DNA of 64,000 nucleotides from Haloferax larsenii JCM 13917 (GTDB lineage Archaea > Halobacteriota > Halobacteria > Halobacteriales > Haloferacaceae), in contig NZ_AOLI01000019.1 of NCBI RefSeq assembly GCF_000336955.1, positions 274,806 to 338,805 of the forward strand. Reading direction: 5' to 3'. This document shows, one piece after another, positions 4,590-64,000 of the stretch. Under the pieces are notes generated by a model. It was not told the DNA's origin and searched no databases. It saw nothing but the letters and a program-made list of their open reading frames with translations. The stretch's first letter is position 1, and every line of letters starts with the position of its first letter. The position numbers and the translations under genes are program-made.

Positions 4590-4682
4590 GTGAATTAGTC
4601 AGTAGTTGGTTGTTACGCTTGTTGCCAGTGCTGTCGGCCAAATCGGGTCAGTTCTTCGGTTACAGTCGTCATTCTGATGGTG

Positions 4683-6978: not shown

Positions 6979-7036
6979 GCCGCCACAACCGTGATTTCCG
7001 GCAATAAGACTGTTGGGAGGTGTGTTCCCGAGTGGC

Positions 7037-7765
7037 TCAGAACAGCTTCGAGAGGAACTGCTTCCCGCGGTCGGTCTTGGGGTTCTCGAAGAACTGCTCC
7101 GGCGGTGAGTCCTCGACGACGCGACCGTCGGCCATGAGGACGATACGGTCGCCGACTTCCCGAGCGAAGCCCATCTCGTGGGTGACGACGAGCATCGTCA
7201 TGCCCTCGTCGGCGAGGCCGTGCATGACGTCGAGCACTTCCCCGACGAGTTCGGGGTCGAGTGCGCTCGTGACCTCGTCGAAGAGCATGACACGTGGGTC
7301 CATCGCGAGTGCGCGGGCGATGGCGACGCGTTGTTGCTGGCCGCCGGAGAGTTGGTTCGGGTAGGAGTTATCCTGGTCGGCAAGACCGACCCGGTCGAGT
7401 AACTCTTCTGCCCGCCGGACGGCGACCTCTTCGTCGAGGTCCTTTACCTTCTTCGGGGCGAGCGTCACGTTCTCCAGCGCCGTCTTGTGCGGGAAGAGAT
7501 TGAAGCTCTGGAACACCATCCCGATGCGCTGCCGAAGGTGGTTGATGTCCGCGTCAGGGTCGGATATCGAGGTACCGTCGAGTCGAATCTCTCCGTCCTG
7601 AATCTCTTCGAGACGGTTCGCACAGCGAAGGAGCGTCGATTTCCCCGAGCCAGATGGCCCGATGATGACGCACACTTCGCCCTCTTCGACTTCGAGGTCG
7701 ACGTCTTTGAGGACGTGCGTCTCGCCGAAGTATTTGTCAACCTTGTCGAATTCGAGGAGACTCAT
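7037..7765 (-). CDS. glnQ: Polar amino-acid ABC transporter ATPase (GlnQ type)
   Basis: A 242-aa ABC ATPase that powers substrate import. Walker A is GPSGSGKST (about 36-44), the Q-loop is in VFQSFNLFPH, the signature LSGGQQQR, Walker B VMLFDEVTSALDPE, and the switch His is in VVTHEMGFA. The FNLFPH segment and the closing PKTDRGKQFLSKL are typical of the polar amino-acid (PAAT) subfamily. Its ATG overlaps the permease TGA (ATGA), so the two are translationally coupled. It is the last gene of a binding protein - permease - ATPase operon. Arg, Gln, Glu and His are all possible substrates. Confidence 0.92.
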   Translation of the reverse strand: MSLLEFDKVDKYFGETHVLKDVDLEVEEGEVCVIIGPSGSGKSTLLRCANRLEEIQDGEIRLDGTSISDPDADINHLRQRIGMVFQSFNLFPHKTALENVTLAPKKVKDLDEEVAVRRAEELLDRVGLADQDNSYPNQLSGGQQQRVAIARALAMDPRVMLFDEVTSALDPELVGEVLDVMHGLADEGMTMLVVTHEMGFAREVGDRIVLMADGRVVEDSPPEQFFENPKTDRGKQFLSKLF

Positions 7766-8595
7766 CGGCGGTCACCTCCCCAGTCCGCGCGGTTTTCGAG
7801 GTGGCTGACGATTTTGCCAAGTGGAATCGTAATCATGAGGTACGCGATAGCGACGAGAATAATCGGTGTCCACGGGTCGAACGTGGCCGAGTTGACGTTG
7901 CGGAACGCACTGATGAGTTCGGGGACGGCGATGACTGTCAGGAGTGAGGTGTCCTTCACGAGGATGACTTGGTCGTTGCCGATTGCAGCAAGCGCGTTGC
8001 GCCACGCCTGCGGGAGGACGACCTCACGCATCGCCTGCACGTAGGACATCCCGAGCGAGCGTGCTGCTTCCATCTGCCCCTCGGGGACGGCACTGATACC
8101 ACCGCGGACTGCCTCACCGACGTACGCGGCGTGGTTGAGCGTCAGGCCGATGATGGCGGCCGGAATCGCCCAGTTTCGGAGAGGGAACTGACCTGGTGGC
8201 CAGAATGCCGGAATCCCGTAGAATATAACGAGCAACTGGAACAAAAGCGGCGTACCCCGGAAGAACCCGACGTACCCAGTCGCGACGGTGTTTGTGATCT
8301 TAGTTTTTGAAACGCGACCCAGACCGACGATGACGCCTGCGGTGACGGACAACAGACTCCCGACGAGGACGATACCGAGCACCCGCAGGAACGCATCGAC
8401 GAATTGCGGGTAGATAATCTCCACGAAGAGTTCGGAATCGACCTGTGTGAAGATAATCGCCCCGATGAACAGACCGACAACCAGCGTGAACACTGACGCA
8501 ACTGCTGCACCTACGAACTTGAGCGTCTTGTCGTTCAGAAACTGCTCTTGGAACTCGTCGTCCGTGCTCCGCCCCTCAGAGTATGATTCTGCCAT
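7762..8595 (-). CDS. Polar amino-acid ABC transporter permease
   Basis: A 277-aa integral membrane protein of the HisM/GlnP family. Hydrophilic N-terminus (1-30), then several TM helices. The EAA-type coupling loop is EAARSLGMSYVQAMREVVLPQAWRNALAAIGN (read in parts), which contacts the ATPase. Only one permease gene is present, so the channel is probably a homodimer. It lies 45 bases downstream of the binding-protein gene and overlaps the ATPase by 4 bases. Confidence 0.9.
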   Translation of the reverse strand: MAESYSEGRSTDDEFQEQFLNDKTLKFVGAAVASVFTLVVGLFIGAIIFTQVDSELFVEIIYPQFVDAFLRVLGIVLVGSLLSVTAGVIVGLGRVSKTKITNTVATGYVGFFRGTPLLFQLLVIFYGIPAFWPPGQFPLRNWAIPAAIIGLTLNHAAYVGEAVRGGISAVPEGQMEAARSLGMSYVQAMREVVLPQAWRNALAAIGNDQVILVKDTSLLTVIAVPELISAFRNVNSATFDPWTPIILVAIAYLMITIPLGKIVSHLENRADWGGDRR

Positions 8596-8640
8596 TGATA
8601 ATGATTCTCACAGTGTTGGTATAAAAACGCGGTGCGCGAG

Positions 8641-9447
8641 TTAGCCCGAGAAGTACCTCGAGTAAATCTCGTCGTACGTCCCGTTTTCTTTGATGGTCGC
8701 GATAGCCCCGTTGACTTCCTCACGGAGTTCGTCGTCGTCCTTACGGAACCCGATACCGTACTCTTCGACGGTGAGCGTCAGGTACGGCGGTGCGTCTTTG
8801 CCCTGCTCTTCGGCAGCGCCGGTTCCTTCGAGGAATTTGGCGATATCACTCTGGTTGACGAACTCCGCGTTGACGGTGTTGTCGTTGACGACTGCGTCGA
8901 CCTGGTTGTTTCTGAGTGCGTCGAACGCACCGGTAATCTGGTCGTAGCGCTGAATGGTCAGGTCGCCGCCGAACTCTTCTTTGAGCCCGTCAGCGGCTGA
9001 TGCACCGGTCGTCCCCTTCTGGACACCAACCGTTGTCCCTTTGAGGTCTTCTTTCGCTGCGATGTCGCTGTCGTTCAGGATGACGACCGTCTGGTAGGCC
9101 GTGAAGTACGGGTCGGAGAAGTCAATCTCCTCTGCGCGGTCTTCGGTGATGGTCATCGCGGACATGATGACGCGGAAGTTCCCGTTGTTCAGCCCTTGGA
9201 TGATGCCGTCGAAACTCGTCTCTTGGAACTCGTGCTCATAACCGAGTTCATCAGTGAAGACGGCCTGTGCGATGTCAACGTCGAATCCGACGAGTTCGTC
9301 CTCAGGCGTCCTGTACTCGAACGGGCGGTACGGGATGTCCGACCCGATAGTAATCGTATTACCGCCACCACCGCCGCCGAGACAGCCGGCCATCGTGAAC
9401 GTGGCTGCAGCCCCTGCGGCACCCTTCAGATAGGTACGACGTTGCAT
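8641..9447 (-). CDS. Amino-acid ABC transporter substrate-binding Tat lipoprotein
   Basis: 268 aa, SBP family 3. The start MQRRTYLKGAAGAA carries the twin-arginine motif and TMAGC a lipobox, followed by a poly-Gly linker, so the folded protein is exported by Tat and lipid-anchored at about Cys21. The mature part has the periplasmic amino-acid-binding hallmarks GSDIPYRPFEY, GFDVDIA and the SAMTITEDRAEEIDFSDPY segment. It is first in the operon. ATG 9447 is preferred over upstream starts because it opens the Tat signal and a TATA box sits at -28. Confidence 0.93.
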   Translation of the reverse strand: MQRRTYLKGAAGAAATFTMAGCLGGGGGGNTITIGSDIPYRPFEYRTPEDELVGFDVDIAQAVFTDELGYEHEFQETSFDGIIQGLNNGNFRVIMSAMTITEDRAEEIDFSDPYFTAYQTVVILNDSDIAAKEDLKGTTVGVQKGTTGASAADGLKEEFGGDLTIQRYDQITGAFDALRNNQVDAVVNDNTVNAEFVNQSDIAKFLEGTGAAEEQGKDAPPYLTLTVEEYGIGFRKDDDELREEVNGAIATIKENGTYDEIYSRYFSG

Positions 9448-9472
9448 AACAAGGCACAGGTAGCACATCCGC

Positions 9473-9479
9473 CTATAAC
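9473..9479 (-). promoter_or_regulatory. TATA box of the amino-acid ABC operon
   Basis: The minus-strand sequence GTTATAG is 26-32 bases upstream of the ATG at 9447. Confidence 0.55.
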
Positions 9480-9670
9480 ACTTCTTCGGTCCGTCTCCCG
9501 ATTCACGTTTGTTTTGGTGAAATTTGCCAGAAAAACGGTAGAATGAATAAGAAATCAGCATATCATAGGAAATCTAACAATCTAAGTTAAGAATGTTGGT
9601 CAATGATACAACATAGCAAGGATATTTCGATTCGCAAAACTATACTCGTCGTGAAAATCAGGGCGGGAAG

Positions 9671-10504
9671 CTAGTCTGCGTCGTTGGTGACAGCGGCCCG
9701 AGGTGCGGGGAGGCCACCACGGACAACGGAGAACGCAGCTACGACGAGGACGAGCGCGACGACCGTTCCACCGAGGTGCGCGAGTTGGAGCGTCGGCCCG
9801 TACACCTGCCGACCGACGATGAGGAGCGCGACGACAATCACGCTCGCGGGCGCGACAAGTAGCCGTAGTTTGCCGTATGCATCCTTCTGCGCGCCGTGCG
9901 CTGCAGAGGCCCAGAGGGTTGCACAGATGAGTGCGGCGTAGGTGGCGAGGCCGACGACGTAGTAGGTTGCCTGCGTCGTCGGGCCGAAGGCGACGAAGCT
10001 GTGCGGTGTGAGGACGAGCATGATCGGCATCCCGAGGAGTGCCAGTCGGACTGCGTCAGCGGTGCGTCCGATACCGCGGTCGGCGAGCCCCCACGCAGCG
10101 GCGGCGACGACGGCAGTGAAGATGGACGTCGCGACGACGTAGTGGGCGGTCAGGATGACCCACTCGTACTCGGTGACGGTGAGCGCGCCGAGGACGATTT
10201 GGAACGGGAGGATGACCGTCGCGACGACGAGCGCGTAGCGAACGCGGGCGGCGACGCCCTCGCGCCACGCTTTCACCGTCGTGCCGAGGATGACGAAGCC
10301 GGTGAGCATCGCGACGAGGCGGTGGAACCACTCGATGAAGCTGCCCCAGTTGGCCGGAAAGAGACCGAGAAAGCCGTCACAGAACGGCCAGCGGCCGGCA
10401 CAGGTGAGTCCAGCGCCCGACGCGGCGGTGTAGACGCCGAGGACCATCAGAACGCCGGTCATCACGGCACCACCGGCGAGGAGGCGACGAAGCCGAGGTG
10501 TCAT
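9671..10504 (-). CDS. ctaA: Haem A synthase (COX15/CtaA)
   Basis: A 277-aa protein of about eight TM helices. It has the CtaA features: an extracytoplasmic loop with GLTCAGRWPFCDG (Cys pair about 34-41), EWFHRLVAM (haem-ligand His in helix 2, about 60), LTAHYVVA (about 118) and LQLAHLGG near the C-terminus (about 243). The enzyme oxidises the C8 methyl of haem O to give haem A for aa3-type oxidases. It stands alone here with its own promoter, divergent from the M24 gene. Confidence 0.9.
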   Translation of the reverse strand: MTPRLRRLLAGGAVMTGVLMVLGVYTAASGAGLTCAGRWPFCDGFLGLFPANWGSFIEWFHRLVAMLTGFVILGTTVKAWREGVAARVRYALVVATVILPFQIVLGALTVTEYEWVILTAHYVVATSIFTAVVAAAAWGLADRGIGRTADAVRLALLGMPIMLVLTPHSFVAFGPTTQATYYVVGLATYAALICATLWASAAHGAQKDAYGKLRLLVAPASVIVVALLIVGRQVYGPTLQLAHLGGTVVALVLVVAAFSVVRGGLPAPRAAVTNDAD

Positions 10505-26988: not shown

Positions 26989-27462
26989 TTACGCGTTCGG
27001 TCCAGTCCACTTCTGGAGCGTCGCAGACGAGGAGCCGGACTCGGAGTTCCAGACGACGCGGACGGTTTGGTCGGCGAGAGTGGAACTAGGCTCGGGGTAG
27101 ATGGTCACACCTGACCCTGCCTTCACATCCTCTGGACCATTGTTGAGGAACGTCCACGATACACTGTTCGAGTTCTGGTTGCTCGTGTTTGCTGTGGAAT
27201 TGATCTCTACACCAGTACTCACACTCAGCCGGTCTGAGTTAATCGCTTCACCGCTCTCGTGGGTGATGTTCAAGTAATCGTTGGAGCTTTGGTTGTATTG
27301 GAAACTGAAGCTGGCTTGTGGAGCCGTCTCCGTCTGCTCACCGAGGCCGAGGACGAACGTTCCGATAACTGCGGCGAGGATGACGGTGATAGCCACCATC
27401 AGAATCACCCCGATGACGGGCGATACTGCGTCGTCGTCTGTGATGAGTTCGTGGAGTTTCAT
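26989..27462 (-). CDS. pilA: Type IV pilin, fourth in tandem cluster
   Basis: 157 aa. The prepilin leader MKLHELITDDD precedes the H-domain AVSPVIGVILMVAITVILA, which PibD peptidase should expose by cleaving before the AVSP. The H-domain continues unchanged to FVLGLGEQ. The mature domain is Ser/Asn-rich with N-glycosylation sequons (NQS, NIT, NTS). It ends RVVWNSESGSSSATLQKW, a motif shared by all four neighbours. Haloferax PilA pilins with this H-domain form adhesion pili. ATG 27462 is selected because it opens the leader. Its upstream element matches that of the next pilin. Confidence 0.88.
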   Translation of the reverse strand: MKLHELITDDDAVSPVIGVILMVAITVILAAVIGTFVLGLGEQTETAPQASFSFQYNQSSNDYLNITHESGEAINSDRLSVSTGVEINSTANTSNQNSNSVSWTFLNNGPEDVKAGSGVTIYPEPSSTLADQTVRVVWNSESGSSSATLQKWTGPNA

Positions 27463-27503
27463 AGTTCCTGAATGTGTTAACAATTGACTATTCTAGTTGA
27501 TTT

Positions 27504-27520
27504 CACCTAAGGCTATCGGG
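27504..27520 (-). promoter_or_regulatory. Conserved upstream element of pilin gene 4
   Basis: The 17 bases CACCTAAGGCTATCGGG (plus-strand reading) lie 42 bases before the start codon. The identical word occurs at 28076-28092 before the preceding pilin, at 41 bases. A shared GACTATTC follows at 27486 and 28049. Confidence 0.6.
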
Positions 27521-27564
27521 GATATGTGAAATAAAGAATAACAGTCCGCGTAGTAGCTGTGGGT

Positions 27565-28035
27565 TTAGGCGTCAGGGCCAGACCACTTCTGGAGCGTCGC
27601 GGACGAAGAACCGGAGTCTGCGGTCCATACGACGCGGATAGTTTCACTGTTGAGCGTGCCACTATCGGCTTTAATCGTCACCGAGGACCCTGCCTTCACG
27701 TCCACTTCCGTGCCCGTATCGAGGTCAGTCCAGCTCAGACTTCCTGCTGCAGAGGGAGTCCCTGTCTGGTTAGTAATATCCGTACTGGCAGTGATATTCA
27801 GCCGGTCCGAACTTATCTTCTGACCGCTCTCGTGGGTAATAGTCAGGTTGGTGTTTGCACTCTGGTTGTAATCGAACCCGAAGCTGGCTTGTGGAGCCGT
27901 CTCTGTTTGCTCACCGAGGCCGAGAACGAACGTCCCGATGACTGCGGCGAGAATGACGGTAATAGCCACCATCAGGATGACACCGATAACCGGAGAGACT
28001 GCGTTGTCGTCTGTAAGGAATTTTTGGAGTTTCAT
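27565..28035 (-). CDS. pilA: Type IV pilin, third in tandem cluster
   Basis: 156 aa. Leader MKLQKFLTDDN, then the same H-domain AVSPVIGVILMVAITVILA through FVLGLGEQTETAPQASF. The mature part holds sequons (NQS, NLT, NIT, NQT) and ends SSSATLQKWSGPDA. It lies 102 bases upstream of the fourth pilin and 104 downstream of the second. Its own conserved upstream element suggests independent expression. Minor or major pilin status cannot be decided. Confidence 0.88.
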   Translation of the reverse strand: MKLQKFLTDDNAVSPVIGVILMVAITVILAAVIGTFVLGLGEQTETAPQASFGFDYNQSANTNLTITHESGQKISSDRLNITASTDITNQTGTPSAAGSLSWTDLDTGTEVDVKAGSSVTIKADSGTLNSETIRVVWTADSGSSSATLQKWSGPDA

Positions 28036-28075
28036 AGGTCGTGACTGTGTGTGTAGATGACTATTCGAATTGCCA

Positions 28076-28092
28076 CACCTAAGGCTATCGGG
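28076..28092 (-). promoter_or_regulatory. Conserved upstream element of pilin gene 3
   Basis: Identical 17-base word to 27504-27520, at the same distance from its start codon (41 bases). This is either a promoter core or a regulator site duplicated with the gene. Confidence 0.6.
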
Positions 28093-28139
28093 TAGTTATC
28101 ACATCTGAAGAAGAACGGATGACTGAAGGTTGGTGCCGA

Positions 28140-28616
28140 TTAGGCGTCCGGTCCAGACCACTTCTGCAGGGTTGCAGACGTGGAGCCGGATTCTGCGGTC
28201 CACACGACGCGGAAGGTCGCGCTATTGAAATCGTTGCCGTTGCCCGCGACAGTCACCGAATTGCCAGCGGTGACGTCACCTGAAACATTCATAGCCTCGA
28301 ACGTCTTCGAAGAGTTAGACTGGCCTACGAGGCCGCCGTTGTCCTCTTCGAAGTTAACCGAGGCAGTCAGATTAACGCTGTCCGCCGGGATTGATTCACC
28401 ACTGTCGTGAGTGACTGTGAGTGAGTCGTTGTTTCCGTTCTCAGCAAAGTCGAAGCTGAAACTCGCTTGCGGTGCTGTTTCGCTCACCTGGTCACCGAGA
28501 CCGAGGACGAACGTCCCGATAACGGCTGCGAGGATGACGGTGATAGCCACCATCAGGATGACTCCGATGACTGGGGACACCGCGTCGTCGTCAGCGAGGA
28601 GTTCTCTAATATTCAT
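28140..28616 (-). CDS. pilA: Type IV pilin, second in tandem cluster
   Basis: 158 aa. Leader MNIRELLADDD, the invariant H-domain from AVSPVIG to FVLGLGDQ, then an Asn/Ser-rich domain with several sequons (NDS, NLT, NSS, NVS) and the closing STSATLQKWSGPDA. Its ATG directly abuts the TAA of the first pilin (TAA-ATG with no gap), so it is translated from the same message. H-domain identity with the others suggests recent duplication or gene conversion. Confidence 0.88.
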   Translation of the reverse strand: MNIRELLADDDAVSPVIGVILMVAITVILAAVIGTFVLGLGDQVSETAPQASFSFDFAENGNNDSLTVTHDSGESIPADSVNLTASVNFEEDNGGLVGQSNSSKTFEAMNVSGDVTAGNSVTVAGNGNDFNSATFRVVWTAESGSTSATLQKWSGPDA

Positions 28617-29042
28617 TTATCCGTTGTAGGTCCACTTTTGGAGGGTAGATGAAGTACCACCACTTTCGGACGTCCAGACGATACGGACGGTGTCCCCATC
28701 CGAAGGTGCTGGACTAGTCAGCGCGATCGTCGTGGAGTCACCTGCCGAGATTTCGTTGTCAGAGTCGGTCCACGCGCGATCTGTGCTATTGTACAGCGTA
28801 ACATTCAGATCGGAGTCGGAAATTGACTCACCGCTTTCGTGGGTGATCGTCAAATCGCCCGATCCGCTGTCGTAGTCAAACGCGAAACTCGCCTGTGGTG
28901 CCGTCTCCTGCACTTGGTCGCCAAGCCCGAGGACGAACGTCCCGATAACGGCTGCGAGAATCACGGTGATGGCCACCATCAGGATAACCCCGATGACTGG
29001 CGAAACTGCGCGGTCTTCTGTGAAGAGGTTCTTAAGCTTCAT
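28617..29042 (-). CDS. pilA: Type IV pilin, first in tandem cluster
   Basis: 141 aa, the shortest of the four. Leader MKLKNLFTEDR, H-domain AVSPVIG...FVLGLGDQ, short glycosylatable domain (NVT, NST) and a diverged end SSTLQKWTYNG instead of GPDA. It leads the two-gene unit with the second pilin. ATG 29042 is chosen over an in-frame upstream ATG at 29063 because it starts the prepilin leader. Confidence 0.87.
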   Translation of the reverse strand: MKLKNLFTEDRAVSPVIGVILMVAITVILAAVIGTFVLGLGDQVQETAPQASFAFDYDSGSGDLTITHESGESISDSDLNVTLYNSTDRAWTDSDNEISAGDSTTIALTSPAPSDGDTVRIVWTSESGGTSSTLQKWTYNG

Positions 29043-29182
29043 GTGTTGCGTTGTGTCCCACACCGAGACGGCCTGAGTACACCCCGTTACAGATGTACTA
29101 AAGGGGTGGGTTGCACTCCCCCTCTGCCCGGTGGCCGTCCTAGTGTGTCCAACCGATGGTTATCGTGGGGTGACTTAAAACT

Positions 29183-29267
29183 GGGTGCCAAATTAATGGT
29201 ATGTTAGGACCGATAAATTCTCTCTTAATATAGGGTTTATATGGGGTTTATTCTCGGAATGGCACCC
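29183..29267. repeat. Spaced inverted repeat GGGTGCCA / TGGCACCC
   Basis: Eight-base arms at 29183-29190 and 29260-29267 flank a 69-base AT-rich core containing TTTATATGGGGTTTAT. The core could be a regulatory region. Confidence 0.4.
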
Positions 29268-29588
29268 GAAATCGGCTGTTCAATAGGAACCATTGACACG
29301 TTTGGGAGAGTTGCACACGTTTGGAGGAGTCGTCAATCTTTGCTGTACACGTGTGGTCGGGAGGCAAGGGTGACGAACTCCCAGAAGGGGTCGACAGAAA
29401 AGTCCCTGCCGAAAAATAGATTTCGGGCACGTATTTTTCGAGGACCTACTTCTTGTTAGCGCGCGCTCGCGTGAGAGAGAACAACTCAGTTGACTACAGT
29501 TCAGTCGAATCCGACGAAGGGACGACTCAGAATCAGTTGTCGAAGGAGGCGCGTCCGCTCTACAGTTTGTTTCGTCGAGAACGAAGAA

Positions 29589-29608
29589 GTCCCCGGCGAA
29601 CCGGGGAC
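29589..29608 (+). repeat. Perfect hairpin GTCCCCGG-CGAA-CCGGGGAC
   Basis: An eight-bp stem with a four-base CGAA loop in otherwise non-coding DNA. There is no T-tract on either side, so it is not an obvious terminator. It could be part of an RNA or a protein site. Confidence 0.5.
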
Positions 29609-29744
29609 ATCGTTCCTACCCAAGGTGGCGTGCGCACGCGTTGAACAGGTACACTTTCTGGCTACATATGTTTTGTGGGGTACATTGGCTCATTCGGGCC
29701 TCTACTGCATGATTGTTAACGTTTCAGATTAGGTCAATCACACA

Positions 29745-29754
29745 AAGTATTTAC
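29745..29754 (+). promoter_or_regulatory. Probable promoter of the S-layer glycoprotein gene
   Basis: AAGTATTTAC is a TATA-like element. A start about 27 bases downstream would leave a leader of about 120 nt before the ATG at 29898, unusually long for haloarchaea. The leader contains a CCGGG-TTCTG-CCCGG hairpin. Confidence 0.45.
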
Positions 29755-29897
29755 CGTGAACGCCCAACAGGTCCAACCGTACCCCTGCCCATGGAGACAC
29801 CTGTGAGTACCCCACCTCGGTCCGGGTTCTGCCCGGTTCGACTCAATCCGAGGATTGACGAAAACGGTGTCCCCGACTGCAACACCCATCAACAACA

Positions 29898-32642
29898 ATG
29901 ACACGTAACAAACAGATCCGTGCAGTGCTTCTCGCTGCGCTGATGGTCTTCTCGGTTTTCGCCGGGTCCATCGCGTTTACGGGTAGTGCTGCTGCGGAGG
30001 CAACCAGTCCCTCCCTCTCTCCGGATACGGTAGAGACTGGTTCTTCCACAACGGTTGACGTAACGATTGACGACGATGACGGCGACTCTGTCGGCCTGCA
30101 CGCGTGGGTCGACGAGAACGACGACGGCTTCTACAACGCTAGTGAGCCGTCCGTCTCGAACTCCAGTGCTTACACTGGTGGGAACAGTGGCATTACGCTG
30201 TCCTCCATCGACGTGAGCAGCCTCGACGCCGGTGACTACGATGTCGCCGTCGCTGAGAACGAGTCGCTCACGGACGGCGTCACGCAGGAGAACTCCAGCA
30301 CCACGCTGACCATCTCCGAGTCGGACGCCCCTGAGCTCCTCTCCGCGACCCACTTCGCAACGAAGGGTGGCGACAAGGTTCTCGAACTCTCGTTCGACGA
30401 GCAGGTTGACATCAGCAGCGCAACGTTCGACCTCTATCAGGACGAAGAACTGGTTGCGGAACTTGACGACAACGACGCAACCCAGAACACCAACGGTCAG
30501 GTCCTCGTCAACACCAGCGGTGAGCTCTACACCGGCGACATTGAAGTGAAGGTCGAAGGTGTCGAGGACACCGCAGGTAACGATCTTGACGAAGGTCTCG
30601 ACTCGGACAACAACGCGTCCGTTACGGTCGCGACGGTCACGTTCGACGACACTGAGTCGAGCACCGTCGACGCCTACAAGGGCGAGACTGTTGCAATCAC
30701 TGACGGCACCGTTGGTACGGATGTCGAGATTACGTCCGACGAGACCCAGGACGACAACGAAGGCTTCTTCCGCTCCGGTAACACTGGTTCGACCTCCGAA
30801 GTCTACGTCTTCGACACGTCCGAGCGCAACACCGAACGCTACAACATCTCCGTTGCTGGTAGCTTCGTCGACAAGGTCCAGATCCGTGACCTCGGTCTCG
30901 AAGTCAGCGTTGACGACCTCAACGTTACCGACGAGGACCTCATCGAAGGCAAAGTTAACGCCAACGTTGACCAGCGTAACATCGAGGTCCGTCTCCTCGA
31001 CGACGACGGCGACGAAGTCGAAGAAGTCACCATCAGCGCGACCACGGACGGTCAGGGTGAATACGAATACGAGTTCAACGCATCCTCCGATGACATCGAC
31101 ACGGGCGACTACACGGTCGAAGTCATCGACAAGGCCTCTGGCGTGACGGTCGAATCCGACACGATCACCGTCTCCGAGGCTGGCGAAGGTAAGACGAACA
31201 TCGGTGGAGATGGCGTCATCAACGACGAACGTGGTGACGTCGTCGCAATCCCTGTTACGCTCACGAACACTGACACCGCTACCCTCACTATCGGTACCGA
31301 GGGTGATGGTTACCAGGCTAACGTCACCGTCGAAGACGGCGACGAAGACGGCGAAGTTGTCGTCCTCTGGGACAGCTCCAAATCCACCAGCACCAACGTT
31401 GATACTGTCTTCGATGTCGAAGACGGTGACGACGAGATCCTGACGGGCAGTGACGGTGACACTGGCGTCAGCGAGACGACCAACGACCTCATTGACTCCG
31501 GCGACTACGAACTCGAAGTCCGTACCGGTACGGACTCCTCGAACGACGCCGACAATGTCGGTTCCCTCGTCCTTGGTGACGCTTCCGTCGAAACGGTCGC
31601 AATGTGGACCGCACCGGATTCTGAGTCCCTCAGCGACCTCGACGACGTGAACGCAGCACTCGAAAACGGTAACATCACGCAGGACAGCAAGATCGCCTTC
31701 GGCGACAAGGCTGTCGTCGAGATCGTCGCCCCCGGCCTCGAAGGCTTCGTGGGCGCTCAGGATGACGAGACGCCGAACTTCTTCAACGGCGCTTACAACG
31801 ACTCCTACCGCCTCACGGTCAACCAGAGTAACCCTGGCCCGAACCGTGACGCGAAGATCATCAACGTCAGCAACGCGTCGGTCGTCGCTGACGGTGACAA
31901 CGACACTTACTACGTCGTGTTCAACACGGAAGAGATCGACGCAGTCCGTGACGAAGACGACAACGGTGTTATCGACAAAGGCACTGACACCGACGACGCT
32001 ACCCTCGAAGACGACGACGCGTTCAACGTCGAGTTCAAGCTGATCGGCGAAGACGACGTCTCGAACAACAACCTCGCGCTGGTCGAGGACGACACCTCCA
32101 TGACGACCTCCTTCGAGAACATCGAAGCAGAGCACACGTTCGACATGGACCCGGTCAACGTCACGAACGCCGAAAGTCAGACCATCACGGGTACGACTGA
32201 CGTCGCACCCGGTACGGAACTCACCATCCGCGTGAAGTCCGACGGCGACACGCAGCCGCGCTTCCTCAAGACGGCGACCGCGTACGTCCAGACTGACGGC
32301 ACGTTCTCCGCCACGTTCGACTTCTCCGAGCAGAACGTCGGTGACACCTTCACCGTGACTGTCTCGGGTGCTGGCGACGTGGCCTCTGACGAAGAAATCG
32401 ACGGCAACGTCGTCGAATCTGTCGAGACGGCAACCGCGACGCCGGAAGAGACGACCGAGACGCCGGAACAGACGACTGAGACGCCGGAACCGACGACCGA
32501 AACGCCGGAACCGACGACTGAGACGTCTGAGCCGACGACTGAGACGACGGAAACGACCGACACCGGAACGCCCGGCTTCGGCATCGCCGTTGCTCTCGTC
32601 GCGCTCGTCGCTGCGGCGCTCCTCGCAGTCCGTCGCGACTAA
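29898..32642 (+). CDS. S-layer-type surface glycoprotein, PGF-CTERM anchored
   Basis: 914 aa. The Sec signal peptide has the haloarchaeal surface-glycoprotein form (RAVLLAALMVFSVFAGSIAF, cleavage after about SAAA). The ectodomain is very acidic, built of beta-strand-rich Ig-like stretches with several N-glycosylation sequons (NSS, NVS, NVT, NIT). A Thr/Glu/Pro stalk (five TPEPTTE-type repeats) suits O-glycosylation. It ends PGFGIAVALVALVAAALL-AVRRD: the PGF motif for archaeosortase A, a helix and a basic tail. It probably forms the cell-wall lattice or is a major surface protein. It resembles Halobacteria csg proteins only in layout, so no csg symbol is given. Confidence 0.85.
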   Translation: MTRNKQIRAVLLAALMVFSVFAGSIAFTGSAAAEATSPSLSPDTVETGSSTTVDVTIDDDDGDSVGLHAWVDENDDGFYNASEPSVSNSSAYTGGNSGITLSSIDVSSLDAGDYDVAVAENESLTDGVTQENSSTTLTISESDAPELLSATHFATKGGDKVLELSFDEQVDISSATFDLYQDEELVAELDDNDATQNTNGQVLVNTSGELYTGDIEVKVEGVEDTAGNDLDEGLDSDNNASVTVATVTFDDTESSTVDAYKGETVAITDGTVGTDVEITSDETQDDNEGFFRSGNTGSTSEVYVFDTSERNTERYNISVAGSFVDKVQIRDLGLEVSVDDLNVTDEDLIEGKVNANVDQRNIEVRLLDDDGDEVEEVTISATTDGQGEYEYEFNASSDDIDTGDYTVEVIDKASGVTVESDTITVSEAGEGKTNIGGDGVINDERGDVVAIPVTLTNTDTATLTIGTEGDGYQANVTVEDGDEDGEVVVLWDSSKSTSTNVDTVFDVEDGDDEILTGSDGDTGVSETTNDLIDSGDYELEVRTGTDSSNDADNVGSLVLGDASVETVAMWTAPDSESLSDLDDVNAALENGNITQDSKIAFGDKAVVEIVAPGLEGFVGAQDDETPNFFNGAYNDSYRLTVNQSNPGPNRDAKIINVSNASVVADGDNDTYYVVFNTEEIDAVRDEDDNGVIDKGTDTDDATLEDDDAFNVEFKLIGEDDVSNNNLALVEDDTSMTTSFENIEAEHTFDMDPVNVTNAESQTITGTTDVAPGTELTIRVKSDGDTQPRFLKTATAYVQTDGTFSATFDFSEQNVGDTFTVTVSGAGDVASDEEIDGNVVESVETATATPEETTETPEQTTETPEPTTETPEPTTETSEPTTETTETTDTGTPGFGIAVALVALVAAALLAVRRD
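32439..32543 (+). repeat. 21-bp tandem repeat encoding the TPEPTTE stalk
   Basis: Five near-exact 21-base units encode TPE(E/Q/P)TTE, the last as TSEPTTE. Length here may vary between strains and would change the stalk length. Confidence 0.8.
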
Positions 32643-32839: not shown

Positions 32840-33688
32840 TCACGACGATTCGTCGTCGTCGTCGGTTTGTCCCCGTAATTTGGGGTCGATTGCAGGGTCA
32901 CGGTGTTGCTTCCGTGCTCGCTTCTTAGCGGAGCCAACGAGCGAATCTGGTTCCTGTTGACTTTCGACGAACTCCGTGTCTCCAATTTTTTGTGAAGCGA
33001 TCTGATGTAATTCTGCGTTGTCTGGGTTGGCAGTGGCCCTATACGATGAGGTACTGGACGTAGCCGATGAGGCTGAGACCACGTTAAAATCCGTGTGGTC
33101 CGTAATCATCATCTGTATCTGGTCTTTTTGGCTGTAGAAATGGTCTTTGACGCCGATAAATTCGAACCGAGCACCCTCCTCTAAGTACGGGTGACTGACG
33201 CCATCGTTCACGACGAAGACGACGCTGTGGTGGACGCTCTCGTCTACGACCGTCCCTTTGATGTCTGGGGTTCCAGCGTCGCCTTTGTTGACCCACGTGA
33301 TGGACTCGATAACTGCTTCAACGGTGACGAAGTCCCCACTCCCTGTTAGCTGGGAAAGCGTCCGAACGTTGTCACCACCCGTGTTGGTCTGCTCGTCGGG
33401 AGATGAACCATCGTCCGAGGACGACGGTGGCGTGTCCGTGCCGTCTACTCCTGATTCATTTACTGAAGCAAATAGATAGTTTGGACCTTGCCCCTCTCCC
33501 ATCACGTATTTCGAAACTGTGACATGGACATCTGCGGTTTCATGTGACTCGGGGAGGTCGTGATTAGAACTGAAGATACACTTCACGTCAAAGTCGACTG
33601 CGGGCGAGTCGAGAAACCAGTCACCGTCTCGTAGTCGTACAGACAGCGTTCCGGTCGTTCCCGGTTCAGTGAACCACTGGCCTGACAT
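32840..33688 (-). CDS. Hypothetical protein with a possible OB-fold domain
   Basis: 282 aa, not recognised as a named family. Residues about 1-75 form a beta-rich N-terminal unit (LSVRLRDGDWFLDS...DFDVKCIF). A Ser/Asp linker (about 80-105) leads to a second unit (about 108-205), VRTLSQLTGSGDFVTVEAVIESI...GTVVDESVHHSVVFVV, whose strand pattern resembles an OB-fold nucleic-acid-binding domain of the RPA/SSB kind. The tail is basic then acidic (KKRARKQHRD ... DDDDESS). There is no signal or TM helix. It has its own TATA box and lies next to tRNA-Met. DNA or RNA binding is inference. Confidence 0.6.
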   Translation of the reverse strand: MSGQWFTEPGTTGTLSVRLRDGDWFLDSPAVDFDVKCIFSSNHDLPESHETADVHVTVSKYVMGEGQGPNYLFASVNESGVDGTDTPPSSSDDGSSPDEQTNTGGDNVRTLSQLTGSGDFVTVEAVIESITWVNKGDAGTPDIKGTVVDESVHHSVVFVVNDGVSHPYLEEGARFEFIGVKDHFYSQKDQIQMMITDHTDFNVVSASSATSSTSSYRATANPDNAELHQIASQKIGDTEFVESQQEPDSLVGSAKKRARKQHRDPAIDPKLRGQTDDDDESS

Positions 33689-33711
33689 TTGTTTATTATC
33701 ACGGTGATGGG

Positions 33712-33720
33712 GGATATAAT
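33712..33720 (-). promoter_or_regulatory. TATA box of the possible OB-fold gene
   Basis: The minus-strand sequence ATTATATCC lies 24-32 bases before the ATG at 33688. Confidence 0.55.
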
Positions 33721-33800
33721 GGTTAACTCAGCAGAATGTGGTGAAGATCAATAGACAAGATGCGACTCCCGAATGTGAGTCGGTGTCTTCAGAAGTGGTA

Positions 33801-33949
33801 TGCCCGGGGTGGGCTCCGAACCCACGATCTCCGCATGTCCCAGGTGCGAGGCCGGCATGACCTCGCGAGGGGCGGAGGCTTCCAAGGCGTTCCGCACCGA
33901 TTGTGAAACCCTATGAGTGCGGCGCTATGTCCAGCTAAGCCACCCGGGC
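33801..33949 (-). tRNA. tRNA-Met (CAT, elongator) with 75-nt intron
   Basis: Exon 1 is 33949-33912 (38 nt) and exon 2 is 33836-33801 (36 nt), giving a 74-nt tRNA. Acceptor GCCCGGG pairs with CCCGGGC and the discriminator is A. The anticodon stem CCGCA/TGCGG encloses CTCATAA with anticodon CAT. The intron (33911-33837) interrupts after position 37, the canonical archaeal site, and can form the bulge-helix-bulge around the splice sites. The A-T-rich-free acceptor without G1-C72 mismatch, together with the intron, marks it as the elongator. No CCA is encoded. Confidence 0.93.
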
Positions 33950-34046
33950 TCAACTTCCCGTTGTGTGCTGGTTGTATTTAAGCTTCTCATCTCCGGCGGC
34001 TTCGAGAGGAGTCACCACGGGACTCGATTGGCCGCATCACCCACGG

Positions 34047-34053
34047 ATTTATG
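34047..34053 (+). promoter_or_regulatory. TATA-like box of the DUF7115 gene
   Basis: ATTTATG lies 25-31 bases before the ATG at 34078, supporting that codon over the upstream in-frame GTG at 34066. Confidence 0.5.
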
Positions 34054-34077
34054 CCCTAACACTGGGTGACTCAACCC

Positions 34078-35139
34078 ATGAGCCAACCGGAGATCGTCCA
34101 GTCCATCCTCGACGAGGAGACCGTGGTGTCTCGCGTCCACCTCGGGGGCGAGGACGAACTGTTTGTGACTCCGAACCGGACCCTCGTCTACCGTGCAGAG
34201 GGCCTGCTCTCGGACGAGTCCGTCGACGAATTTTCGCACGCCGCCGAGCGGGTGTCGGTAAAAGAGGGACGACGAAAAGCAAAGATATCGCTCGACTACG
34301 GCCTCGACGGGTCCGAAACGTTCGGCCTGTCGGCGAAGCGTCTCGACGAAGCACTGCAACCCATCCTCGAAGGCGTTCTCACGAGCGCGGGCGTCGTCGA
34401 CGACGACGAGCGCCTCGTCGAGGCGTTCCGATTCAGCGAACTCACGTTCGTCGTCACCGAAAAGCGCGTGGTCCGACACATCGGAAGCGCGGTGTGGGAC
34501 GAAGACTACGAGACGTACCACTACGACGACGTCACGGACCTGACGTTCGAGTCGGGGAGCGTCGCCACGACGGTCGTTCTCACGGTCGACGGCCGCCAAG
34601 AGCGGTTCAAGACGCCGAACGAGGACGCACGCCTCGTCCGCGAGAAGCTTTCGAAGGCAATCTGTGACCACCACGGCGTCGGGAGCCTCGAAGAGTTCCG
34701 GGTCAAGATGGCCGAAGCGCAACAGCAGGCGGAAGCAGAGCCCGAGCGTGACAACACCAACTTCGGAGAGGGACCGGACCCACTGAGCGCCAACCCGGCG
34801 GAACTCTCCGAGGAACCGACGAACTCGACACGTGAAGAAGAACACGCCGAGAGCGTCGAACGACAGCCAGTCGAAGCAACACCGACGGCGAGTGGGCAAA
34901 CAGAGACGGAGACAGAGACGGAGCCTGTCGAATCGGCGAACACTACGGTCGCAGACGCCGGGGACCTCGGATTCGAGGGGTCCGGCTTCGAACCCGCCGA
35001 CGAGGCGGTGTCGTCGGAGGAAGACATCGTCGCCGAGATTCAGTCGCTCCGCGAAGTCGTCGAGGCACAGGGCGAGCAGATTCGCTACCAGCAGGAACTC
35101 ATCGAACAGCTCATCGAGGAATTGCGACGCGGCCGGTGA
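34078..35139 (+). CDS. DUF7115-type haloarchaeal protein with coiled-coil end
   Basis: 353 aa. Two similar beta-rich segments (about 15-85 and 115-190) look like repeated PH-like modules: ELFVTPNRTLVYRAEGLLSD in the first and FVVTEKRVVRHIGSAVWDED in the second. A Glu/Thr-rich disordered linker (about 220-310) follows, then a final coiled coil (REVVEAQGEQIRYQQELIEQLIEEL). The family appears restricted to haloarchaea, and its function is unknown. An IS1341-type element begins about five bases after the TGA, so the last codons could have been affected by insertion. Confidence 0.7.
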   Translation: MSQPEIVQSILDEETVVSRVHLGGEDELFVTPNRTLVYRAEGLLSDESVDEFSHAAERVSVKEGRRKAKISLDYGLDGSETFGLSAKRLDEALQPILEGVLTSAGVVDDDERLVEAFRFSELTFVVTEKRVVRHIGSAVWDEDYETYHYDDVTDLTFESGSVATTVVLTVDGRQERFKTPNEDARLVREKLSKAICDHHGVGSLEEFRVKMAEAQQQAEAEPERDNTNFGEGPDPLSANPAELSEEPTNSTREEEHAESVERQPVEATPTASGQTETETETEPVESANTTVADAGDLGFEGSGFEPADEAVSSEEDIVAEIQSLREVVEAQGEQIRYQQELIEQLIEELRRGR

Positions 35140-35143
35140 ATCG

Positions 35144-35164
35144 CCTCGGGGTCAAGCCCCGAGG
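35144..35164 (-). repeat. Right-end hairpin overlapping the tnpB stop
   Basis: Eight-bp arms with loop TCAAG. The tnpB TGA (35152-35154) is in the loop, so the stem is part coding and part downstream. This is the expected region of the omegaRNA scaffold. Confidence 0.7.
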
Positions 35165-36384
35165 CTTCCCGTTTCCACGACGCGCTTTGCAGATACCGAA
35201 GTGGTATCCGTAGGGAGCGCAGTCTCCACGGGCGTGTCTTCGGGCCATCCCAGCCCTAATTCAGAAAAGCCTCTCTTTAGAACGTTCATCGCCGCATTCG
35301 CATCCCTATCTGTCTTAAACCCGCAACTCGGGCAGGAGTGTTCTCGTACCCAGATGGGTTTCGCCGTCTCCACACCACACGATGCACACTCTTTCGTCGT
35401 GCCACGGGCCTCGACTTGAACGACGTGTGTGCCGTACAGGTCTGCTTTGTATTCGAGGAGTGTGATGAACTGTCGCCACGCAACGTCCTGCTTGTTCCGA
35501 GCGTTCCCGTCTCCCTGAAGCATACTCTGGACGTTCAGGTCTTCAACGAATACGGCGTCGTACTCTTTGACGAGCCACGTCGTGATTTTGTGCTGGTAGT
35601 CCAGCACGTTCCGTCGAATCCGACGTTTGACTTTGGCTACTTTGACTCGTTGTTTCTCGTAGTTGTTCGATCCTTTCTCCTTGCGAGACAACTTACGCTG
35701 TTCGCGTTGGAGTCGCTCGTAGTCGTCTTCGAGGTTGAGCCAATCCACAGTCTTTCCATCGCTGGTGTGGATGTAGTTCAGGATACCGAGGTCAATCCCA
35801 ACGCTGTTACTCGCGTTGAGCGAATCTTCATCGGGTTTCTCGGGCAGGTCACTCTCGTCTGTCTCTAACCCGAAGGAGACGAACCATTCGCCGGTCGTCT
35901 CCTTTTTGAAGGTGACTTCTTTGATGGTGGCGTGGTCGGGAATCAGGCGGTGATAACGGATTTTGACCCAGCCAATTTTGCTGAAGCGGACGTACGCATA
36001 CTTGTCGCGGCCCCTCTTTTCATCGAGGTCGAAACCAGACTGGTTGTACGTCACACTTCGGTACTCGGCGGGTGCTTGCCGCTTGAGACGACCAACGTTG
36101 TACCCCTTCTCTTTCTTTTTGCGAAGGTTTGAGAGGTTGCGATGGAAGCGTGCGACGGTCTCTTGGGCGGCTTTCGAGTGTAGCTCGCTGAATACCGACC
36201 ACTTCCGCTTCCATTCGGGGAGTCTGTTGTTCTGGTCGTACTCACTCGGCTTATCGTCTTCAGGACTGTTCTCGTAGTCCCAGCGGACGTGGTTGTAGAG
36301 TTGGCGATGAACGTTCAGATGGTATTCCAGTTCAGCCGCTACCTCTTGTGTTGGGTAAGCGTGGTAGCGGTGACTGTATTCCAT
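35152..36384 (-). CDS. tnpB: TnpB RNA-guided nuclease, IS200/IS605 family
   Basis: 410 aa, full length. The N-terminal helix-turn-helix region (about 1-100) precedes the RuvC-like core. All three catalytic acids are present: Asp in SVGIDLGILN (about 195), Glu in VFVEDLNVQSM (about 283) and Asp in KTDRDANAAMN (about 362). The C4 zinc finger is CASCG ... CPSCG (about 338-356). TnpB proteins cut DNA guided by an omegaRNA from the element's right end, which here would overlap the end of this gene and the hairpin at 35144-35164. The stop codon lies inside that hairpin loop. The intact active site suggests recent activity. Confidence 0.92.
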   Translation of the reverse strand: MEYSHRYHAYPTQEVAAELEYHLNVHRQLYNHVRWDYENSPEDDKPSEYDQNNRLPEWKRKWSVFSELHSKAAQETVARFHRNLSNLRKKKEKGYNVGRLKRQAPAEYRSVTYNQSGFDLDEKRGRDKYAYVRFSKIGWVKIRYHRLIPDHATIKEVTFKKETTGEWFVSFGLETDESDLPEKPDEDSLNASNSVGIDLGILNYIHTSDGKTVDWLNLEDDYERLQREQRKLSRKEKGSNNYEKQRVKVAKVKRRIRRNVLDYQHKITTWLVKEYDAVFVEDLNVQSMLQGDGNARNKQDVAWRQFITLLEYKADLYGTHVVQVEARGTTKECASCGVETAKPIWVREHSCPSCGFKTDRDANAAMNVLKRGFSELGLGWPEDTPVETALPTDTTSVSAKRVVETGSLGA

Positions 36385-60986: not shown

Positions 60987-61132
60987 TGTGTTGTCAGTGG
61001 TCGGCGCGAGCGTAAAGTCGTATTCCCCGATTCGGGTCGATGACTGCAACGTATTCGCACGACAGACACTCGCTCCCCGACGACGAAACGAAGGGCTTAA
61101 CCGCGAGACACGCATCGCTTTGAATGCACCCT

Positions 61133-61203
61133 GGGACCGTGGGGTAGTGGTATCCTCTGCCGATGGGGTCGGTAGGACCTGAGTTCGACTCTCAGCGGTC
61201 CCA
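61133..61203 (+). tRNA. tRNA-Pro (GGG)
   Basis: 71 nt without encoded CCA. Acceptor GGGACCG pairs with CGGTCCC with discriminator A. The anticodon stem TGCCG/CGGTA encloses ATGGGGT with anticodon GGG. The T arm is CTGAG-TTCGACT-CTCAG. No intron. It stands at the edge between GC-rich core and the AT-rich island, a usual integration site. Confidence 0.93.
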
Positions 61204-61565
61204 TACTTTTCCCGACGCTACCTTTCGAGCCGTGAGTCCGTCAGGACTCCGGCGAGTACCTTCTGCGTCGGGTGAATTATGCACGGAGCTGAGCGTCGAG
61301 CCCGGAAGTCGCAGCCGACGAGCGCAGCGAGGAGGACCGTCTTCCGACGTTCGACTCTACTTTTTCTGTCTGGAATTCATTCCTTAAAAAACCTGCCTTC
61401 GTAAGTGTGACTAACGTCACAACTGCGGAAAAAACCCCACCGCTGTGTGGCTGCAATTGATGCACGCGAAAGGTAGAGAGCGAAGCACTGCGCGAAATAC
61501 AGACCCGAGATGTCGTGAGTTGTCTATCCAGAAGACATATATCTATGATATCTTATTGTGACACA
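61204..61565. other. Junction region between tRNA-Pro and AT-rich cassette
   Basis: 362 bases with no trusted gene. GC stays high to about 61350 and then drops. TATATATC at about 61538 is 24-30 bases before the ATG at 61566, a possible promoter for the cassette. A ten-base word of the tRNA T-arm (GTTCGACTCT) recurs at 61349-61358. Confidence 0.45.
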
Positions 61566-61922
61566 ATGTCCGACAACGAGGATGGCAAGGAACACGACCC
61601 AATTAGTCACAATCAATTACATGAATTCCATAAGGATATGACATCGGATGGTGTTCGCGTAAAAAAAGACGCTACGTCGTTGATGCAACAACAACTGCAG
61701 AATACATCTAGAGCCGTAATCCAACTAGCCGAAAAAAAGATGGAAGCAAGGGATGGGGGACAGCTAGAAAAACAAGACGTGAGAGCCGCATTCGATGAGG
61801 CTCTACGTCCATATAGTCTAATTGATGATTTCATAACAATTATGGGAGAATATGAATTTGATTTAAAACAAGAGGCATCAAGGACAAACGTCCTCGAATT
61901 TGATATTGAAGATGACGAGTAG
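61566..61922 (+). CDS. Single histone-fold protein with acidic C-terminal tail
   Basis: 118 aa, AT-rich codons unlike the neighbours. Residues about 15-80 align by eye with archaeal histones: helix 1 LHEFHKDM, loop VRVKKDA (30-35; histones have RVS-DA), long helix 2 TSLMQQQLQNTSRAVIQLAEKKMEA (in parts, 37-62), short loop GGQLEK and helix 3 QDVRAAFDEAL (70-80) with the Asp at 71. Residues 85-118 add an acidic tail. Haloarchaeal core histone HstA is a doublet, so this singlet is not it. It may bind DNA or a partner histone-fold. ATG 61566 starts after a TATA-like run. Overlaps the next gene by 11 bases. Confidence 0.6.
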   Translation: MSDNEDGKEHDPISHNQLHEFHKDMTSDGVRVKKDATSLMQQQLQNTSRAVIQLAEKKMEARDGGQLEKQDVRAAFDEALRPYSLIDDFITIMGEYEFDLKQEASRTNVLEFDIEDDE

Positions 61923-63321
61923 ATTGTATTTTTTTCGAGAAGAGGATGAGTATGATGTCGAAGAAATGGTTAGCCGAATTACGGTTGGTGATATTCGAAA
62001 TACCACAAGTGAACCAGTGAAGCATGTGATCGAAAATTCACCAGTTAGTGCTCAAGACCTGCAGAAAAAAGAGCAAGAATTGCATTCTCTACTGCAATCA
62101 AAATTGGGGTTCCAAGGCTACCGAAGGTTCATCAAAGATATATTCGAATATTGTGGAGAAAAAGGAGACAAATTTAATTTACAAATATATACTGGTGCGG
62201 GGATGGACTACGATGAGTTGCTTACCAACGCCAAGAAAAAACAACAAGGTCTTGATCCTGATGAATTAGTGGGCAAGAAAATCGAGAAGTCACTAATACA
62301 ATATGAAGAACGTGGTTCTAACGTACTAGACCTCCGTTTTGTTTTGGCTGAGGACTATTCAGTTACTATAGTTAGCGATGATGGTGAAGAGAATGAGGTT
62401 TATCGCTCGCAGCCTTCCTTTGTCGAAGCTCGTGTGTATACTGATAAAAACATTGTAGTTCTATCAAACCGACAACTTGACGATGACGAAAAACTAAGGG
62501 TTCGGAGAACTGTCCAAGATTGGACGGGGGGCACGATTAGTTCTGGTCCAGATTTAATGGAAAATGAACTACTTGCTCTACAAAATTACCTGAACGGAGA
62601 GAATAGTGGAATAGATTACGGTGACTTCAATGAAGACAGTATCTCCACGGCAAAATATCGAGGAGAGAGAAACTTAGCTCTCTCGAGGTCAAGGATTGTT
62701 CAGCCTGCGAAGCAAGATGGACGAATTGTTGCACTACAATTTTATCGGCAATATGGTTCTGGAAATCATGAAAGAGATGTGTTGGTCAGAATTCACCGTG
62801 ATGGTCATCTAACTGCTTCAAAACCTACTGAGCCAGATTTCATAGACGAGATCGTATCGGCACTCACTCGCCTACGAAAACATCGTGAGTTTTGGAACAC
62901 TTTGAATTCACAGATAGAATCGTACATTGACGAGTTAATGGTTCGCTCTTTAATCAAAGGCGTGAAAAATTACAAAAGTAAAAAACACCAGGCAACAGGA
63001 GCTAACGTAAATGAATTTGTTGAAGACAATGAGTATCAAATAGTTGAAGTCCAACTCTATGAAGCGGTATTATTCAATATCGGGTGCAAACTCATTGAGT
63101 TACAGATAAATGGCAACCTGCCAGATGTCGACACTGCTGACAAAGACCCACGTCAAAAAGACGAACTTAGGGGATTGTTCAACGACTTTGCAGAGTACGA
63201 AATTGATTCACCCCATTATGACTTCGAGCATATCTGGGATCATCTATACGCACTGCTTTCGAGTGATTACTCATCTTCGCTTGAATTGATTGAAGAAGCA
63301 ACTCAACGATATAGGATATGA
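61912..63321 (+). CDS. Unknown 469-aa cassette protein
   Basis: 469 aa, not recognised, no signal or TM helix. The N-terminal ~95 residues are helical and charged (QDLQKKEQELHSLLQSKLGF). About 100-230 alternate beta-like strands with charged loops (DLRFVLAEDYSVTIVSDD, RVYTDKNIVVLSN). The C-terminal half is helix-rich (EIVSALTRLRKHREFWNTL, YIDELMVRSLIKGVKNYKSKK). No nuclease, helicase or NTPase motif is visible. AT-rich codon use matches the histone-fold gene. ATG 61912 overlaps it by 11 bases and ends in ATGA with the third gene, so the three are one transcriptional and probably functional unit. Confidence 0.6.
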   Translation: MTSRLYFFREEDEYDVEEMVSRITVGDIRNTTSEPVKHVIENSPVSAQDLQKKEQELHSLLQSKLGFQGYRRFIKDIFEYCGEKGDKFNLQIYTGAGMDYDELLTNAKKKQQGLDPDELVGKKIEKSLIQYEERGSNVLDLRFVLAEDYSVTIVSDDGEENEVYRSQPSFVEARVYTDKNIVVLSNRQLDDDEKLRVRRTVQDWTGGTISSGPDLMENELLALQNYLNGENSGIDYGDFNEDSISTAKYRGERNLALSRSRIVQPAKQDGRIVALQFYRQYGSGNHERDVLVRIHRDGHLTASKPTEPDFIDEIVSALTRLRKHREFWNTLNSQIESYIDELMVRSLIKGVKNYKSKKHQATGANVNEFVEDNEYQIVEVQLYEAVLFNIGCKLIELQINGNLPDVDTADKDPRQKDELRGLFNDFAEYEIDSPHYDFEHIWDHLYALLSSDYSSSLELIEEATQRYRI

Positions 63322-64000
63322 CCGTCTCAGGAGACTTACCAAATAATGGAATCTCGCGCGCTAATATTGAGCTGCTGCGCTGGTGTTTTTCGAAGATTCC
63401 AGCAGGGGGTTCTGTTGACGATTTTTCATTCACCCAGGGGGAGTTGGAAGAAAAACACGAAAAGTATACCGAACTTCTAAATTGCGGTCCAACAAATCGA
63501 AGCTGGAAAGCATATTTTAACTCTACAGATAGTCAATCATGGAAAATCAACGTTGACACGATTGTTAACGCGTGGTGTGCAACGGTTCAAAATAAGTATC
63601 TAGTCGATGTTTTGGAGGTTACATCTAACTCAAAAGACTCCACTTTATATCAAGTGGTTGTTGATACTAACAACAGAGGGGAAATTGAATTTAATCTGTT
63701 CTTTGACACCGAAGAATTGTTGAAAAGTTCACCAGACCCATCAGAATCGAGATTCTCTGTCTGGTTCATTGAACCACAGAGTGGTGATAACCGTGATTCT
63801 GTTTTTGGATGGCATAAAGTAAGTGATGACGAGTTCTGGGATGAAATAATCGCTCAAATCATCAAAAACCAAAGGGCACCAGATGAGCTCATCTGTCAGA
63901 TGAGTTCACATGCAGTGACCGAGAATTTTGATGGTGTGAAGGATAATATCAAAATCTTTGGTGAGATGTATGGTACAAAAATAAAGACACAACCTCAACT
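63318..64000 (+). CDS. Unknown cassette protein, 3' end beyond window
   Basis: ATG at 63318 overlaps the previous TGA by four bases, and the frame stays open for 227 codons to the window edge. The visible part starts NNGISRANIELLRWCFSKIPAGG, then has strands LVDVLEVTSN, YQVVVDTNNRGEIEFNLFFD and FSVWFIEPQSG, and an acidic-basic mix. Trp and Cys are frequent. No family was recognised. Its size and start are certain only at the 5' side. Confidence 0.55.
   Translation, partial: MTVSGDLPNNGISRANIELLRWCFSKIPAGGSVDDFSFTQGELEEKHEKYTELLNCGPTNRSWKAYFNSTDSQSWKINVDTIVNAWCATVQNKYLVDVLEVTSNSKDSTLYQVVVDTNNRGEIEFNLFFDTEELLKSSPDPSESRFSVWFIEPQSGDNRDSVFGWHKVSDDEFWDEIIAQIIKNQRAPDELICQMSSHAVTENFDGVKDNIKIFGEMYGTKIKTQPQ

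Follow-up and report, generated by a model that had tools for sequence, protein, structure and literature searches.

What are three overlapping, AT-rich genes doing at the right end of a 64,000-nucleotide stretch of the Haloferax larsenii JCM 13917 genome? This stretch (the window) is C19:274806-338805 of genome G000 (contig NZ_AOLI01000019.1), and locus L003, in which positions beyond the window are given, is contig C19 from position 330000. An earlier note, made from the letters alone, had called the trio an undescribed cassette with the architecture of a defence or toxin-type operon. The same gene order had already been published as the RdgC histone operon. According to the part of Schwab et al. 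(2024; PMC11390915) considered here, this operon consists of a histone, an RdgC-like protein and a transmembrane protein, in that order; it is known from Haloferax volcanii (D4GVY1) and Bacillus, and was named without a function. We conclude that the trio in the window is very probably a divergent copy of this operon, likened to the published ones by their description. We propose that its three products likely assemble into a complex that is anchored in the membrane and captures foreign DNA; that the operon serves defence at all is possible and is put forward tentatively.

The three genes and their relatives

The operon and the features that lie next to it are as follows.
61566..61922, plus strand: gene 1, an open reading frame for a relative of the RdgC-type histone, 118 amino acids (aa)
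61912..63321, plus strand: gene 2, an RdgC-like protein (predicted fold), 469 aa
63318..64000, plus strand: gene 3, the first 227 aa of a transmembrane protein that runs past the window to about L003:9546
61353..64000, no strand: the left part of an AT-rich block that the closest congener, G009, lacks (BLASTN); the whole block is L003:6159-9870
61132..61204, plus strand: tRNA-Pro (GGG), found with ARAGORN beside the block, as context outside the operon

These coordinates bear out the description of an AT-rich plus-strand trio. The overlaps were 11 bases between genes 1 and 2 and 4 bases between genes 2 and 3, and the three overlapping genes are presumably co-translated. The GC content of the block was 40.7%, compared with 63.7% upstream and 63.9% downstream. 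As the start of gene 1, the ATG at 61566 was preferred to an upstream GTG because the relatives P0006 and P0007 start there. The frame of gene 3 was open to the end of the window (227 aa). In its continuation we observed two single-N scaffold joints (L003:8715-9162, from window position 63909), and beside each of them a contig end is duplicated exactly (92 and 99 bases). The joints and duplicated ends look like a scaffolding or assembly artefact rather than biology, and such an artefact could make an annotation call gene 3 broken. The three unjoined pieces of gene 3 together span positions 2-390 of the 400-position gene 3 profile; hence, gene 3 looks complete, with its end near L003:9546. The trio is not a product of chance, since every frame has relatives and the gene order is repeated in 18 other loci, and we regard the operon as real, coherent and apparently complete.

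Gene 1 is, by family-level profile searches, a relative of archaeal histones. When the profile of the gene 1 family was aligned to six canonical haloarchaeal histones with hhalign, an E value of 2.5e-5 was obtained, compared with 0.09 for the best of 20 shuffles. PF00808 was matched by nine of the 14 family members at E up to 1 (best 2.1e-6). The window protein gave no PF00808 match at E up to 1 and, searched alone, matched no Pfam family. It was 41% identical to a Haladaptatus protein (L037:9637-9987), which matches NCBIfam archaea_histone with an E value of 2.5e-8, under NCBI's cut-off, and 37-43% identical to the members from L035, L037, L042, L043 and L068. The small first gene had been expected to encode a DNA-binding-like protein, and this putative activity is supported by its kinship to histones.

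The structure model of gene 2 was nearest to E. coli RdgC and to the kinetochore proteins CENP-L and CENP-N. In this model the match to the RdgC fold covered residues 85-325 of 469, leaving outside the core about 84 residues at the N-terminus and about 144 at the C-terminus. Gene 2 is predicted to share the fold type of RdgC, CENP-L and CENP-N, with additional parts at both ends. No relation was found between its sequence profile and five RdgC proteins, and it was about 26-37% identical to its relatives from the fetched loci. The virus proteins matched by the fold include one phage protein named recombination-associated. In eight relatives, gene 2 was split into two overlapping genes, with the break at about residue 205 in the numbering of the window protein (L027, L031, L033, L034, L045, L072, L073 and L148). 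Seven of these are among the 18 loci with the trio; the eighth is L148, where the stretch read did not reach gene 3. The split form is not mentioned in the portion of PMC11390915 used here.

Gene 3 was 27% identical over 214 aa to gene 3 of L037 (BLASTP, E 2e-29). Hydropathy indicated two hydrophobic segments in its C-terminal frame in the window genome, and also in 17 of 18 relatives, with one segment in L034; the product likely spans the membrane with two segments. Its N-terminus may, by a tentative prediction, form a winged-helix-like domain. Two C-terminal membrane segments are comparable to those of 2TM effectors. From this feature, and from the overlapping genes with the small one first, a toxin-antitoxin-like or abortive module can be envisaged, in which gene 3 would be an effector that damages the membrane, with genes 1 and 2 as its DNA-binding regulator or sensor; a 2TM effector is also named by PADLOC among the matches at L043. 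However, about 300 residues precede the membrane segments, gene 3 was found only beside gene 2 in a sample of 391 genomes, and no convincing match to a toxin family was obtained. We consider such a module improbable.

Compared with the features of the RdgC histone operon given in the part of its description considered here, a histone-fold first gene was recognised from family-level sequence, the gene order was the same, and the third protein was transmembrane by hydropathy. An RdgC fold with small extra N- and C-terminal domains was found by structure prediction alone. In the sample of 391 genomes the third protein occurred only with the histone operon, as described: all 11 genomes with gene 3 have gene 2 adjacent to it. 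The description further gives the third protein a winged helix at its start, and the histone a long C-terminal helix through which a tetramer is formed. In the literature searched, the terms "RdgC histone" and "RdgC-like protein" were confined to Schwab et al. (2024).

Distribution, genomic site and neighbours

Subsequently, the spread of the operon was considered. Around matches to gene 2, 20 distinct other loci were fetched, and the trio was present in 18 of them. The exceptions were L036, a marginal match with no gene 1 match, and L035, a remnant. L035 (G279, 8749-9316) appears decayed: after a 126-aa histone-like gene, only about 65 codons match gene 2, and the gene 3 profile search gave no match there. 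Gene 2 of L038 contains masked bases; it was located separately and is absent from the trio table. In the class sample, 13 of 391 genomes matched gene 2 at E 0.01, comprising 11 solid matches, the remnant (G279) and a marginal one (G192). Gene 3 was found in 11 of 391 genomes, namely those with a solid gene 2; the two samples of 391 are presumed to be identical, among the matches listed. In the order sample, gene 2 was found in 16 of 392 genomes at E 0.001. The three genes appear tightly coupled across genomes.

Among 72,556 plasmid records, gene 2 was found in five, all of which also have genes 1 and 3; one gene 2 copy is on the Halobaculum roseum plasmid NZ_CP082289.1. The gene 1 search of plasmids added one match at chance level (E 5). 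In NZ_CP082248.1, a plasmid of Natrinema sp. SYSU A 869, a 50-residue stretch (191953-192102) resembled the beginning of gene 3 at 60% identity; this record has no gene 2 match, and the stretch is perhaps a remnant of the operon. Copies were also found on contigs of chromosome size, 2.0 to 3.8 Mb long (G383, G135, G149, G425 and G430).

The plasmid copies are consistent with a partition module of plasmids or islands, in which the histone would mark a site, the RdgC/CENP-N-like protein would read it, and the membrane protein would anchor the replicon for inheritance. One of the five lies close to ParA and orc1/cdc6 genes, and another near orc1/cdc6 and Cdc6 genes. Furthermore, a membrane anchor suits segregation, and the CENP-L and CENP-N that the gene 2 model resembles bind the centromeric histone CENP-A, as stated in the part of a 2014 eLife paper (PMC4080450) considered here. 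On chromosome-sized contigs, however, an extra partition module would not obviously be needed, and we regard partition as rather unlikely.

It had also been conceivable that the genes are fragments of a replication module known from plasmids or viruses. This was not borne out: gene 2 was found in none of 50,697 phage records and no match was confirmed in IMG/VR (two patterns used). The copies on chromosome-sized contigs also oppose it, though five are on haloarchaeal plasmids. No replication family was found among the window proteins in Pfam or NCBIfam.

Within the genus, the window genome alone was matched by the profiles of gene 2, of gene 3 and of the histone; the 14 other genomes gave no match. 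In the nearest congener, G009, the flanks are shared at about 85-95% identity (L003:4531-6158 and stretches from 9871 of our locus; BLASTN). Between these flanks, about 760 bp of different DNA stands in place of the 3.7-kb block that lies 3' of tRNA-Pro(GGG). Because only one of 15 genomes of the genus has the operon and the nearest congener is without the block, a recent gain of the operon at a variable site is suggested. No att-like direct repeat of at least 14 bases was seen in L003:5850-10300. The site (window 61205 onward; loci L103-L115) varies among congeners, G010 having about 11 kb or more of lower-GC DNA there and G002 about 3.5 kb, and it is possibly an insertion hotspot. Other dips in GC (about 0.53-0.63 per kb) were seen at window positions 4000-10000, 27000-30000 and 33000-36000; these may be further islands.

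This distribution bears on a host nucleoid or recombination regulator, in which a DNA-bridging histone and an RdgC-like recombination modulator at the membrane would tune the cell's own repair or expression. RdgC is believed to act as a modulator of RecA, and for RdgC histones DNA bridging is predicted, as their predicted tetramer suggests (PMC11390915, in the portion considered). A core nucleoid role would, however, predict wide conservation. Gene 3 is instead patchy in the class, the congeners lack matches, the AT-rich block is missing from the nearest of them, and defence genes lie near many relatives. We judge such a regulator unlikely.

When proteins were scanned singly with PADLOC, a recognised defence gene was found within about 5.5 kb of the operon in 10 of 18 neighbourhoods, as listed below.
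L027 and L072: type I restriction near the operon
L029: BREX BrxC (2494 bits)
L026: Druantia DruE
L028: type IIG-like methylase
L030: Hma-like methylase
L068: DpdA
L034: SoFic
L043: Pycsar effector, also in the annotation
L045: DISARM/BREX-like helicase, with an annotated PglX

In L043 (Haloterrigena salifodinae plasmid pHTS138), a gene with a cyclase domain and a Pycsar-type effector gene occupy 5136-6355, about 5 kb from the operon. One weak match in L032 (PDC-S02, E 2e-11) was left uncounted, and the defence count excluded both L003, which is our own locus, and the decayed L035. As controls, stretches elsewhere on the same contigs were used, of which one in 15 was clearly positive (L124, type IIG) and up to five if generic SMC/HerA and UvrD matches, and those to CARF3 and PDC-S27, are counted. 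With one, three or five positive controls, the one-sided Fisher p for 10 of 18 neighbourhoods against the 15 controls was 0.004, 0.04 and 0.18, respectively. Genes in neighbourhoods and controls were predicted with a simple script based on an acid-excess rule. In the neighbourhoods, 147 of 229 called proteins were scanned in two groups, giving 269 and 251 PADLOC family matches; in the 15 control stretches, 140 of 162 called proteins gave 70 and 123. Single scans covered 20 proteins from the 18 neighbourhoods versus 10 proteins from seven of the 15 controls.

Several points weaken the defence count. On the 15 paired contigs, seven neighbourhoods were positive against one, three or five controls, and p rose to 0.018, 0.12 and 0.36; L030, L043 and L045, all three positive, have no control stretch. 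The PADLOC models are redundant, so that the summed matches are not independent. The singly scanned proteins were chosen by size, position, or a pointer from the group scan or annotation, and the effort was unequal. For the window copy itself, no defence neighbour was recognised by eye, its neighbours not having been scanned. Because of the unequal scanning effort, we take the defence neighbourhood as moderate support for a defence role and not as proof of it, and because the control was recounted on paired contigs, our estimate for that role was lowered slightly. The earlier note's suggestion of a defence-type operon is made plausible by the neighbourhood and the patchy distribution but is unproved.

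A proposed function

In the membrane-anchored complex proposed here, the histone encoded by gene 1 would coat or bridge incoming DNA. The RdgC-like protein of gene 2 would then clamp on the DNA, or on the histone-DNA particle that it reads, and the gene 3 protein would tie the complex to the membrane. As a result, replication or transcription of the virus or plasmid would be blocked, or the cell would be shut down. Membrane tethering as the mechanism is doubtful. In a more specific form, which we hold to be distinctly unlikely, the operon would be a mobile, membrane-tethered chromatin trap: the histone would package the invading DNA, and the CENP-N/CENP-L-like partner would read the particle and pass it to the membrane anchor. 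If true, such a trap would be a new, histone-based class of antiviral defence. It would also be the prokaryotic equivalent of the module that reads histones at the inner kinetochore of eukaryotes, and perhaps related to it.

An orphan operon in this way acquires a concrete hypothesis, one open to testing in haloarchaea that are genetically tractable. Should histones serve antiviral defence, the role of archaeal histones changes; should histones be read by gene 2, it becomes possible to test where CENP-N and CENP-L came from.

Comparison with known systems

Relatives of the operon sit near several of the anti-virus systems in PADLOC 2.0, whereas the window proteins matched none of its models better than E 0.014 (a methylase model, over 32 residues).

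With E. coli RdgC, gene 2 shares the predicted core fold. It differs in having no sequence relation that was found and in its extra terminal residues, and no histone gene was among the annotated neighbours of E. coli rdgC in the 6 kb viewed.

With the RdgC histone operon, as far as its description was considered here, the window trio shares a histone relative, an RdgC-like fold with extra N- and C-terminal parts, a transmembrane protein and a haloarchaeal host. The differences are that gene 1 of the window is below Pfam detection, that gene 2 is only distantly similar to its fetched relatives, and that eight relatives have gene 2 in two overlapping genes. The kind of operon was named in 2024, and what is new is a divergent member with evidence of context and fold. 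Added here are the tight linkage among the three genes, their probable recent gain at a variable site, the defence neighbours of many relatives, the split gene 2 and the fold match to histone-binding kinetochore proteins.

According to the part of PMC4080450 used here, Chl4 and Iml3, the yeast CENP-N and CENP-L, resemble RdgC and TBP, and the CENP-N/L complex binds CENP-A. The likeness of gene 2 to CENP-L and CENP-N, known from the predicted fold alone, may merely be a common TBP-like arrangement. Because CENP-N/L resembles RdgC and TBP and binds a histone, the pairing of a histone relative with a CENP-N/CENP-L-like predicted fold in a prokaryotic operon is nevertheless suggestive. Unlike with Iml3 and Chl4, the histone in the window operon is encoded next door, together with a membrane protein.
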